Positions 2,451 through 9,399 of a DNA stretch of 32,800 nucleotides are shown here, one piece after another. The translations under genes were made by a program, and so were the position numbers. The DNA comes from Burkholderiales bacterium. Lineage in GTDB: Bacteria; Pseudomonadota; Gammaproteobacteria; Burkholderiales; Burkholderiaceae_C. Below the pieces are notes generated by a model. It was not told where the DNA came from. It did no database searches and saw only the letters and a program-made list of their open reading frames with translations. The stretch spans positions 1 to 32,800 of the forward strand of contig JAFKGE010000052.1 of the NCBI GenBank assembly GCA_017307865.1, given 5' to 3'. How positions within the stretch are numbered: position 1 is the first letter of the stretch; each line of letters opens with the position of its first letter.

Positions 2451-3314
2451 TCACATTCGCAGCATGCGCCAGGCGATGACGGGTGCGTCCCCCGCGCGCA
2501 GGCGCGGACGCCGGCGCAGCACCTGCGCGCCCAGCGCCTCGATTCGCTCCAGCACGCGCAGGCCGCCCTGCGCCACGGCGCGCAGCTCCCAGCCGGCGCG
2601 GCCGGGCACGCGATGCACCAGTTGCAAGCCTTTTTGCATGCTGGCGCTTGCCTGGCGGGCGCAGGCAGCTATCAATTCGGTAGTTTTCTCATCAGGCTGC
2701 AGCGCCGCGAACTGGGTCGCCGGATCGCTGATGAAGAGGCCGTGCGCGGCGCATTCGGCCAGCGGCAGGTAGTAGCGGCCGCGCGGAATGTCGACCGAGA
2801 GGTCTTGCCAGAAGTTGATGAGTTGCAGCGCGGTGCAGATGGCGTCGCTTTCGGCCAGCGCCTGCGCATCCGTCACGCCGTACAGGTGCAGCAGCAGCCG
2901 GCCCACCGGGTTGGCCGAGCGGCGGCAGTAGTCCAGCAGCTCGGGCCAGTCGGCGTAGGCGGCGCCGCGCTCGGTCTTGGCCACGTCCTGCTCGAAGGCC
3001 GACAGCAGATCGTGCAGTGGCTGCACCGGCAGGGCGAAGGCGCGGATTTGCGCCGCCAGCGGCTGGAACACCTGCGGCCAGCGACTATCAGCCAGCGGCT
3101 TGCCGGCGGCGGCCGCATTCAGCTCGGCGCGGTACGCGGCCAAGTCGGCCAGGCGCTGGGCCGCGGGGGCGTCGCCCTCGTCGGCCAGGTCGTCGGCCGT
3201 GCGGGCGAAGTGGTAGATGGCGGCGATCGGCGCGCGCAGGCGCGGCGGGCACAGCCACGAGGCGACCGGGAAGTTCTCGTAGTGGTCGACGGGCCGTGTG
3301 CCGGCGGCGCTCAA
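2451..3314 (-). CDS. hpnC: Hydroxysqualene synthase HpnC
   Basis: A 287-residue squalene/phytoene synthase paralogue that converts presqualene diphosphate to hydroxysqualene. Recognised by [13 protein letters not shown] near the N-terminus, the first Asp motif [12 protein letters not shown] and the second [18 protein letters not shown]. No ATG suits the N-terminus. The best start is a TTG at 3314-3312 that overlaps the trxB stop (TTGA), giving [15 protein letters not shown]. This arrangement implies translational coupling to trxB. Residues of about 211-230 ([17 protein letters not shown]) are encoded by an in-frame copy of the dispersed repeat (2625-2680). Homologues should lack that segment, which falls in a helix-rich C-terminal part. 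Confidence 0.9.
2625..2680 (-). repeat. Dispersed palindromic repeat, copy C (inside hpnC)
   Basis: On the minus strand it reads GAATTGATAGCTGCCTGCGC, then CCGCCAGGCAAGCGCCAGCA, then TGCAAAAAGGC. The central GCGC-CCGCCAGG-CAAGCGC is the family's inverted pair and the end CAAAAAGGCTTG matches the A-rich tail. It sits in hpnC in the same orientation as the gene and preserves the frame. Confidence 0.75.
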
Positions 3315-4264
3315 GAGGCGTTCTGCTCCAGAAAGCGCTGGGCGTCGAGCGCGGCCATGCAGCCGGTGCCGGCGCTGGTGATGGCCTGGCGGTAGACGTG
3401 GTCCTGTACGTCGCCGGCGGCAAACACGCCGGGCACGCTGGTTTGCGTGGCCATGCCCTGCAGACCGCCCTGGGTGCGGATGTAGCCGTGCTCCATGGCC
3501 AGCTGGCCGCTGAAGATCTCGGAGTTGGGCGCGTGGCCGATGGCGATGAAGCAGCCCTTGAGCGCGATGTCCTCGGTGGCGCCGCTGTCCACGTGGCGGA
3601 TGCGGATGCCGGTGACGCCGCTGTCGTCGCCCAGCACCTCGTCCAGCACGTAGAAGGTCTTGAGCACGATCTTGCCGGCGGCCACCTTGTCCATCAGCTT
3701 GTCGACCAGGATGGGTTCGGCGCGGAACTTGTCGCGCCGGTGCACCAGGGTCACCTGGCGCGCGATGTTGGACAAATACAACGCCTCTTCGACCGCCGTG
3801 TTGCCGCCGCCGATGACGCACACGTCCTGCTGGCGATAGAAGAAGCCGTCGCAGGTGGCGCAGGCCGACACGCCGCGGCCCTTGAAGGATTCTTCCGAGT
3901 CCAGGCCCAGGTATTTGGCCGAGGCGCCGGTGGCAATGATCAGGCTGTCGCAGGTGTAGCTGCCGCTGTCGCCGGTGAGGGTGAAGGGGCGTTTGGACAG
4001 GTCGGCCGTGTGGATGTGGTCGAACACGATTTCGGTGGCAAAGCGCTCGGCGTGCGCCTGAAAGCGCTGCATCAGCTCGGGCCCCTGCACGCCCTCGACG
4101 TCGGCCGGCCAGTTGTCGACGTCGGTGGTGGTCATCAGCTGGCCGCCCGGGGCGATGCCCGAGATCAGCAGGGGTTGCAGGTTGGCGCGCGCCGCATAGA
4201 CGGCGGCCGAATAGCCGGCGGGGCCGGAGCCGAGGATCAGGACTTTGGCGTGGCGGGTGGTCAT
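3311..4264 (-). CDS. trxB: Thioredoxin-disulfide reductase
   Basis: A 317-residue class II thioredoxin reductase that transfers electrons from NADPH through FAD to thioredoxin. Seen: N-terminal FAD motif [17 protein letters not shown], redox-active CATC at residues 135-138, NADPH motif [16 protein letters not shown], and a C-terminal FAD motif [20 protein letters not shown]. The length and start ([12 protein letters not shown]) are standard. It is the first gene of a run with hpnC, hpnD and hpnE, whose coupling to trxB is unexpected because the pathways are unrelated. Divergent to the Crp/Fnr-type gene, separated by 192 bp. Confidence 0.97.
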
Positions 4265-4371
4265 GGATGAAGGCTGAAATGGCTGCGTGAAGGACGCCGC
4301 AAGGGGGTGAAAACCGGGCACCGGCCGGCCATGATGCCCGGGCTCGCCCGGCCGGCAGGGCCCGCAAATGC

Positions 4372-4401
4372 TTGGAGCGCCTGCGAAGCCCGGGGATAAT
4401 G
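4372..4401 (+). promoter_or_regulatory. Candidate sigma-70 promoter of the Crp/Fnr-type gene
   Basis: A -35-like TTGGAG at 4372-4377 and a -10-like GATAAT at 4396-4401 are 18 bp apart. The start codon lies 55 bp downstream, preceded by a GGAGAAG ribosome site at 4445-4451. No other good pair was seen in the 192-bp divergent gap with trxB. Assigned by eye only. Confidence 0.4.
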
Positions 4402-4456
4402 CTCCCATTTTAAGAATAACCAACGAACGAAGTATTCGACTGCCGGAGAAGTCTGA

Positions 4457-8288: not shown

Positions 8289-8360
8289 GGGCAACGCCGA
8301 ACAAATCCTCGCGCGCGTCGCATCCCTGGGCTCGGGCGGTCTGCGGCGTTGAAAATCCTC

Positions 8361-8380
8361 GCGATACCGCCCGGTATCGC
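8361..8380. terminator. Hairpin between lolA and gluQ (possible terminator)
   Basis: GCGATACC-GCCC-GGTATCGC gives a perfect 8-bp stem with a 4-nt loop, followed by TGCGGTTTTC. It lies between the two convergent genes lolA and gluQ. The surrounding 8289-8439 segment also holds inverted AACGCCG/CGGCGTT flanks and a second hairpin CGCTGA-CTTGT-TCAGCG at the gluQ stop. The T-run is poor, so a repeat origin is equally possible. Confidence 0.4.
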
Positions 8381-8439
8381 TGCGGTTTTCGCCTTGCAGC
8401 CCATCCCGATCCAGGGCGCGACACATCGCGCTGACTTGT

Positions 8440-9399
8440 TCAGCGTCGCCCAAGGCGCGCCCGCCAGGCCGCTGTCCAGCGCGCCAGCAGGGCGCCCACG
8501 CTGCTGTCGCTGGCGTCTGAATCCAGCTGCAGATGCCGCGCCGCCGCGCGCAGCGCGCGCGCCGGGTCGCTCAAGTCCAGCGCCTGCGCGCCGTTTTGCT
8601 TGCTGAGCTTTTCGCCGTCGGCCCCCAGCACCAGCGGCGTGTGCAGGTAGCGCGGCGTGGGCAGGCCCAGCGCGGTTTGCAGGGCGATCTGGCGCGGCGT
8701 GTTGTCGGCCAGGTCTTCGCCGCGCACCACGTCGGTGATGCCTTGCGCGGCATCGTCCACCACCACCGCCAGCTGGTAGGCCCACAGGCCGTCGGCGCGC
8801 TTCAACACGAAGTCGCCCACCTCGCGCGACAGCTGTTGCCGCTGCGCGCCCAGGCGGCGGTCGTGCCAGTGGATGGCGCCGCTTGCTTCATCATTGATAG
8901 CTTCTCGCGCTTGATGGGCGGGCGCTGCAAGCCATTTTTGTTCAAAACGCCTGGTGTGCATCCGCCACGCGCGCGCGGCGCGCCCGTGCAGGCCGCCGCG
9001 CTCGGGGCGGCAGGTGCCGGGGTAGGGCAGCTCGCGCCCGCGCTGGCGCGTGATGCCGGCGGCGGCCTGCGCTTGCGCGATGTCCTGGCGCGAGCAGGCG
9101 CAGGGGTAGACCAAGCCGTTGTCGATCAGTTGCTCCAGCGCCGTTTGGTACGCGGCCGCGCGGCTGGACTGCCACAGCGGCGGCGCATCGGGCGTGAGGC
9201 CGCAGCGCGCCAGCTGCTGCACGATCAGGCGGTCGGCGCCGGGCACGCAACGCGGCGTGTCCACGTCCTCGATGCGCAGCAGCCAGCGCCCGCCGTGGGC
9301 GCGCGCGTCCAGCCAGCTGGCCAGCGCGGCGACCAGCGAACCAGCGTGCAGCGGGCCGGTGGGCGAGGGGGCGAAGCGGCCGATGTAGGTGGCCCCCAC
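8440..9399 (-). CDS. gluQ: Glutamyl-Q tRNA(Asp) synthetase GluQ
   Basis: A 319-residue class I synthetase-like protein without the anticodon-binding domain. It attaches glutamate to queuosine at position 34 of tRNA-Asp. Seen: [20 protein letters not shown] (HIGH region), [14 protein letters not shown], zinc-site cysteines in [10 protein letters not shown] and YPGTCR, LAVVVDD and VVRGEDLAD, and KLSKQN (KMSKS-like). The only suitable start is a GTG at 9399, inside the downstream edge of a dispersed repeat, giving MGATYIGRF. Residues of about 150-170 come from a copy of another repeat (8891-8948) encoding [19 protein letters not shown], apparently an in-frame insertion. Confidence 0.93.
8891..8948 (+). 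repeat. Dispersed palindromic repeat, copy D (inside gluQ)
   Basis: Reads TCATTGATAGCTTCTCGCGC, then TTGATGGGCGGGCGCTGCAA, then GCCATTTTTGTTCAAAA. This is the clearest intragenic copy: GATAGCT, GCGCTTGATGGGCGGGCGC, and the A/T-rich tail ATTTTTGTTCAAAA all match intergenic copies. Opposite in orientation to gluQ and in frame. Confidence 0.85.

Follow-up and report, generated by a model that had tools for sequence, protein, structure and literature searches.

A dispersed repeat of about 67 bp that possibly replaces codons of conserved enzymes at equal length in Comamonadaceae

Can a dispersed DNA repeat occupy part of a conserved enzyme gene without lengthening the protein? The question is raised by a stretch of 32,800 nucleotides (positions 1 to 32,800 of contig JAFKGE010000052.1 in the Burkholderiales bacterium assembly GCA_017307865.1, hereafter the window), in which copies of a repeat of about 67 bp lie inside the genes hpnC, gluQ and hpnE. 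The host genome consists of 3.9 Mb in 91 contigs, and the loci most similar to the window are those of Comamonadaceae. In-frame protein repeats are usually explained as selfish insertions in tolerant loops, and an earlier note on this DNA had taken the three copies for insertions of this kind. The reading that we tentatively favour is that the repeat is an old, family-level DNA signal which is maintained by some factor and overwrites codons: judging from alignments with homologues, it appears to replace native codons inside several genes at equal or nearly equal length.

The consensus of the repeat, drawn from the later match set, is GaatACTATttAtTTGATAGCTGCTcGCGCTTGATgGgCGgGCGCTGcAGGCCgATTTGGCTtaAAA. 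It is composed of an A/T-rich left arm, GATAGCT, a hairpin (GCGCTTG..C(AA/GG)GCGC), AGGCC and an A/T-rich right arm, and its G+C content ranges from 40 to 61% over 81 matches. The core, AGCT within (G)ATAGCT, is nearly invariant: both AGCT and GCGC were found in 74-75 of the 75 ungapped members of this 81-match set. The covariance model used here (R1) was built from 29 genome copies matching an exact sub-pattern, for which the genome has 37 occurrences and the reversed control none; the fixed columns of R1 are partly due to this construction, and less so those of the 81-match set. The only pairing found is a central stem of 6-7 bp with G-U pairs, which shows an A/G change preserving the pairing; this is no proof of an RNA role, and covariation analysis gave no support for the arms.

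At least 150 matches to R1 were present in the genome, and the 38 matches with E<=0.001 in 400 kb chosen without regard to the copies correspond to about 370 per genome. With the weight matrix, 72 sites exceeded 0 bits in 432.8 kb, whereas 20 dinucleotide shuffles gave 0.15 on average. Under strict filters, matches were detected in 36 of 119 genera and 37 of 120 genomes of the family. The mean pairwise identity of 75 copies is 60% and that of the best pair 85%. The core mostly arrives with the whole element, i.e., as a cassette, since 23 of the 30 GATAGCT occurrences are accompanied by the rest of the element.

The three in-gene copies announced by the earlier note do exist, and their reading frames stay open. 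That of the squalene synthase gene hpnC (2454..3314, minus strand; TIGR03464, 318.7 bits) is located at 2622..2688 on the minus strand, in the direction of the gene, and corresponds to residues ~209-231 (R1 34.9 bits, E 9.3e-7). The copy in gluQ, the core of which (GluQRS) extends over 8443..9384 on the minus strand (NF004313, 457.5 bits), is located at 8881..8947 on the plus strand, so that the gene reads it in reverse (residues ~151-173; R1 73.7 bits, E 6e-16). The hydroxysqualene dehydroxylase gene hpnE (189..1517, minus strand; TIGR03467, 318.6 bits) also reads in reverse a degenerate copy, at 660..726 on the plus strand (residues ~264-286; R1 23.6 bits, E 4.2e-4). HpnC, HpnD, HpnE and GluQRS are all named by NCBIfam above its cut-offs. 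The range previously given for the three copies, 2625..8948, covers those in hpnC and gluQ; that in hpnE falls outside it. The weight-matrix scores amount to 36.8 bits in hpnE, 41.0 in hpnC and 82.2 in gluQ, the gluQ copy being one of the 29 rows behind the weight matrix and R1, to which the other two do not belong; no score above 5 bits was obtained in the shuffles. The hpnE copy is the weakest of the three, and its orthologue in the nearest relative (L061) matches as well (34.6 bits, E 4e-5 in 1.3 Mb). It is scarcely credible that these matches are chance resemblances of Ala-rich helices. The reverse reading of the repeat does mostly give an Ala/Gln-rich peptide, like common helices of this composition, and the purK gene of element-poor species encodes a similar peptide; the scores, however, are unreached in shuffles, the third positions are locally A/T, and the same register recurs in many lineages, which already contradicts this explanation.

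In HpnC, the site is gapless in 48 of 53 homologues, and the five short forms lack the first residues of the site together with the preceding loop. The alignment with 4hd1, an HpnC structure that we take to be from Alicyclobacillus, is likewise ungapped there, and so are those with eight of nine genomes of the genus, the remaining one having +6 bp. Cruder local alignments, in which differences were counted over the site and 8 residues on both sides of it, gave a difference of 0 in 29 cases out of 64 and mostly -1 to -4 otherwise; a 4-residue difference lies just upstream of the site in the homologue alignment. The gap which the earlier note expected here on alignment with homologues is thus absent, most homologues having an equal length in this place and the copy bringing no net change, and the observation which that note named as refuting insertion, the same residues in homologues of distant genera, holds for HpnC. 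The idea that copies settle in tolerable loops is contradicted for HpnC as well, since in a confident structural model (mean pLDDT 93) the copy falls on a predicted helix, 209-234. Element-like DNA occupies the site in the same register in 16 of 54 rows; among the others, L085 keeps a core (TTGATAGC) and the rest have none of this kind.

The HpnE copy does not represent a clean insertion. The length is the same in all eight bracketed genomes of the genus and in 29 of 57 spanning hits, the others being shorter or longer, and the copy sits in a variable-length linker of ordinary length.

GluQ is the case in which insertion is borne out. Among 31 aligned proteins (the comparison covered the loci of the best 30 of 79 matching genomes), ten are short, with 34-41 amino acids between two anchors, and 21 are longer (at least 50), 17 of which scored as element-like. 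Within the genus, nine of ten bracketed genomes have the longer form, and the other, G087, is 36 bp shorter and lacks the element. The gain in the host genome, a true in-frame one, amounts to +11 to +18 amino acids. The longer form is common to many genera and is therefore ancient. The general claim of in-frame insertion consequently stands for GluQ and falls for HpnC, with its constant length, and for HpnE, with its variable linker. Other repeats were noticed at the same gene: the predicted gluQ gene has 319 residues and an uncertain start, and its open frame extends 5' through a G/C-rich repeat pair (9427-9478 and 9595-9646, 92% identical) located just upstream of the core, which when translated forms part of this long 5' extension. 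In the GluQ of L061 (about 3330-3520) and L201, a second in-frame insert of ~54 residues, G/C-rich and looking like another repeat, adjoins the element.

Is HpnC an isolated case? Lengths were also compared in other host genes, using the frames that match a known gene and leaving out opposite or shadow frames. PurK, the copy of which is among the sharpest (81 bits by the weight matrix), aligned without gaps to two PurK structures, and none of its 19 homologues in the genus differs from it in length. Methylmalonyl-CoA mutase is gapless through the copy in one alignment with the mitochondrial enzyme 8gju. In a presumably Sua5-like gene located beside purK in other species, 15 of 16 comparisons showed no length change; the in-place copy of this gene (L301 reverse-strand offset 3445, L302, L303 and L306) is read along the gene's own direction. 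Gains were found in TruB (+4 residues in three alignments out of three), in the presumed TrmB of two other genomes (+11 residues as compared with 17 of 20 homologues; L146 about 2713, and L153) and in ProA (+14 as compared with 4ghk and somewhat more with two other structures). We take 4izo, 4e4t and 4ghk to be from Burkholderia, the TruB structure to be from E. coli and 8gju to be human. None of the compared genes of the host genome shows the full 22-residue gain. Further intragenic copies are present in MnmC, TlyA, MurU-like and other genes.

These gains might mean that a mobile repeat resembling the Rickettsia palindromic elements inserts in frame and that later deletions trim native residues to the old length. 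We consider this rather unlikely, although the gains in GluQ, ProA and TrmB are real, some GluQ proteins of other genera show a gain of up to the full element length, and the copies occur in both orientations with mostly open frames (over 75 copies, the three frames of the reverse strand are open in 37, 47 and 17 cases, and those of the forward strand in 32, 26 and 4). Trimming would have had to restore the exact length in four genes, including the 81-bit purK copy, and no other length exists among 20 purK genes. When 13 sites were compared with those of the nearest relative, G096, alignment succeeded for 11; at one or two of these the element is missing in G096, with unrelated DNA between the flanks, and neither a clean empty site nor a target duplication, as a MITE would leave, was seen among the 11. 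The copies are, moreover, all dissimilar. An active mobile element was rejected as the main explanation, since the copies are dissimilar and most of the aligned sites are common to the nearest relative.

The likeness to the Rickettsia elements proposed in the earlier note is partial. Both are short repeats that occur in intergenic DNA and also, in frame, within conserved genes (PMC2229807, PMC10969869), and truB, which is interrupted by RPE-1 in Rickettsia conorii (PMC3733652), hosts a copy here (L297 3420-4349). In the accessible text of these sources, the Rickettsia elements measure 105-146 bp (about 150 bp in PMC10969869) and form long stem-loops, whereas the present repeat has ~67 bp and a short central hairpin; terminal inverted repeats of the Rickettsia kind were likewise not found. 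Furthermore, unlike those elements, it adds no residues in at least four genes and does add some in others.

Orthologous copies of the host genome and G096 were compared at 15 of 16 given sites, and the consensus columns were found to be kept while the rest drift. In intergenic copies, 216 of 259 high-information columns are identical versus 175 of 275 low-information ones; in the in-gene copies these numbers are 81 of 89 and 67 of 100. With A/T and G/C columns taken apart, Fisher tests, which treat the columns as independent, gave p values of 2.7e-5 and 1.6e-5 for the 11 intergenic sites and 0.006 and 0.011 for the four coding sites. Two intergenic sites look empty in G096; when both are excluded, the intergenic values become 1e-5 and 4e-6. 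Low-information columns agree at 36% between non-orthologous copies within the genome and at 64% between orthologous intergenic copies (the column sets differ slightly), from which it follows that the copies descend individually, with no recent recopying.

The purK site is common to the whole genus, sharp in copy-rich species and worn in most copy-poor ones, and the fact that it behaves in this way suggests that maintenance may act in trans. With every third position sampled, no other place in the gene resembles the element as closely in 19 of 20 genomes. A/T third positions amount to 59% at the site and 7% elsewhere in the 12 copy-rich genomes, and to 37% and 19% in the eight copy-poor ones, G086 (23 copies) being classed as rich and G080 (13) and G084 (20) as poor. 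The score of the site, which ranges from 81 to -37 over the 20 genomes, tracks the copy number (Spearman 0.80, kinship being ignored and the top copy counts being lower bounds of at least 150). A test of synonymous identity at purK showed no excess at the site.

Motifs of another kind are known in coding sequence without insertion: DNA uptake sequences of ~10-30 bp are genome-wide motifs of this type. HIP1, a cyanobacterial motif, is said, in the title of a cited paper, to propagate by nucleotide substitutions. Could the present repeat, like these motifs, have evolved at each of its sites through point mutations, driven by selection or by biased DNA uptake? This is unlikely in our view. The same-length sites in HpnC, PurK, the mutase and the Sua5-like genes, the graded purK scores, the column-specific constraint and the lack of close copies would all fit; the motif is long, however, its GATAGCT core is mostly part of a complete element, and DNA has been gained in GluQ, TrmB and ProA. 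The likeness to HIP1, a genome-wide motif present in coding sequence without insertion, thus extends to the first four genes and not to the last three, and HIP1 has 8 bp whereas the present repeat is a long element (PMC4390886, accessible text). A short core abundant on its own was not found, since 23 of 30 GATAGCT and 17 of 35 TGATAGC occurrences are in full elements; a short uptake-type motif was rejected on the strength of the GATAGCT count.

The location of 55 copies was determined, 46 from the 400-kb sample (E<=0.05) and nine from the window: 24 lie between genes, 19 share 1-64 bp with a predicted gene and 12 are contained entirely in genes, even though predicted coding sequence makes up 90% of this DNA according to a home-made gene finder checked solely against the known genes of the window. 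The repeat is strongly depleted inside genes (P 1.5e-33). Eight of the 12 intragenic copies are read in reverse by the gene. In a separate, score-biased set, 12 of 47 copies of the genome itself and 5 of 37 copies from other genomes of the genus were intragenic. An RNA element acting in one direction was rejected: in 13 intergenic tandem contexts, six copies run along and seven against the neighbour genes, and the arms lack covariation.

Location at gene ends and a central hairpin with G-U pairs are also properties of REP-type repeats spread by a REP-associated tyrosine transposase (RAYT), and the genome contains one gene resembling such transposases (L228 1174-1902), with 78.4 bits against an NCBIfam cut-off of 80. 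An origin of this type is nevertheless very unlikely. Five of the 19 loci of this kind in the genus contain copies (9 in 60 kb), yet roughly the same density holds for the genome as a whole (46 in 400 kb), and the 3.3-kb locus of the host genome's own transposase-like gene contains none. Among the genomes of the genus, PF01797 matches occur in 10 of the 12 that are rich in copies and in 7 of the 9 that are poor in them, with no co-occurrence over these 21; no PF01797 match accompanies the copies (at least 150) of G095, which is 99% complete, and G083, G091 and G092 have one match each and 0-3 copies. The GTAG/CGTC REPs resemble the present repeat in that they form a small hairpin containing G-T pairs, lie at gene ends and have some copies in open frames (PMC3733652, accessible text), but the tag here is ATAG instead of GTAG or CGTC, and no association with a transposase was found, for which reason a RAYT-driven REP was rejected. 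Acidovorax, Polaromonas, Variovorax and Delftia are absent from the main text of that paper. In G015, the match to each of five IS200-like Y1_Tnp genes is split into two adjoining parts (profile 1-45 and 46-120), as though all five had the same frameshift.

Has the repeat been described before? BRE is also a dispersed repeat of Betaproteobacteria, including Comamonadaceae, with some copies in coding sequence; as described in the accessible text, it differs in having 75-91 bp, a mean G+C content of 69% in Bordetella and tandem arrays (PMC3110155). The motif pair ATAGCT(N)22CAAAAG of Polaromonas naphthalenivorans, reported in 125 copies, 101 of them intergenic and 18 in genes, and often near adjacent genes (PMC5217627), comes closer. 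In 120 genomes of the family, 20 of which had matches, this pattern was found at 41 sites and its reversed control at 21; in G136 and G015, the two genomes with most sites (19, against 0 in the control), these are element-like, for example ATAGCTGCTTGCGCTTGATGGCCGGGCGCAAAAG. The exact pattern is absent from the host genome and from the five Polaromonas loci examined. Judging from these sequences, the motif pair of that 2017 paper probably belongs to the same repeat family. It was published as an unnamed over-represented motif, and the accessible text mentions neither coding replacement nor constraint (PMC5217627). No description of same-length replacement was found in the literature searched, most subscription papers and the original Rickettsia papers being outside this search.

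How might such a signal come to lie over codons? Through ectopic conversion or template switching, copies might be patched over native sequence in genes wherever the resulting residues are acceptable to the protein; maintenance at the DNA level by a trans-acting factor or process would then fix unusual codons in place. Several results weigh against the favoured reading. No gain event has been caught, replacement being read from length comparisons, and no maintenance factor was found. Residues have been gained in GluQ, ProA, TrmB and TruB; some of the longer GluQ forms of other genera exceed the shortest homologues by at least 22 residues, i.e., a full element, and enoyl-CoA hydratase is indecisive, with +7 as compared with 4k2n and about +1 with 4wcz, depending on the homologue. 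These last two results make replacement weaker and insertion stronger. The 16 element-like HpnC lineages lie dispersed over an HpnD tree, with 10 changes (shuffled mean 14), at least four of which are forced by well supported branches, so that repeated loss or gain is needed. TGATAGC and GCGCTTG, with 17 of 35 and 32 of 231 occurrences in elements, are less exclusive than GATAGCT. In copy-rich genomes, the purK site has lower codon identity (0.71 vs. 0.77, a comparison confounded by codon bias) and lower residue identity (0.67 vs. 0.83) than the rest of the gene, and G082, with at least 150 copies and a purK site score of 12, fits the copy-number trend poorly. The independence assumed in the Fisher tests and the kinship and bounded counts behind the Spearman value belong on the same side.

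The window contains nine copies in all, the other six of which lie between genes or at gene edges and match R1. One, between hpnD and hpnE (1514..1580, minus strand), overlaps the hpnE start by 4 bp and is absent, by eye, from G087 and G089. That at 12455..12521 (minus strand) lies immediately 3' of the gene 11741-12454; among six aligned genomes, only G096 has it, again by eye. The copy at 19579..19645 (minus strand), between convergent genes and 3' of the gene 15863-19414, is also present in G096, and that at 25796..25862 (plus strand; 26.3 bits) lies between divergent genes. The last two, at 30130..30196 and 30330..30396 (both on the plus strand), form an intergenic pair 200 bp apart. A search of the window against Rfam yielded tRNA and nothing else. 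Other dispersed repeats of ~120-180 bp, with many matches in G096 and several of them adjoining the element, were noticed in L286 (13464-13605, 16782-16966) and L290 (7405-7534, 12140-12316).

The usual view of in-frame protein repeats as selfish insertions in tolerant loops contrasts with what was observed here, where four genes show no length change, one copy falls on a predicted helix and the purK site looks DNA-maintained. It is possible, though we would not yet call it probable, that a 67-bp signal has been copied over enzyme codons at equal length, and that this DNA signal, rather than protein function, sets part of the HpnC, PurK and methylmalonyl-CoA mutase segments in many members of the family. 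If so, the repeat would be a workable example of conserved enzymes shaped by a non-coding signal, and the search for the factor that reads it would have a clear object. Odd residues in the enzymes of Comamonadaceae can, as a warning, be derived from the repeat.

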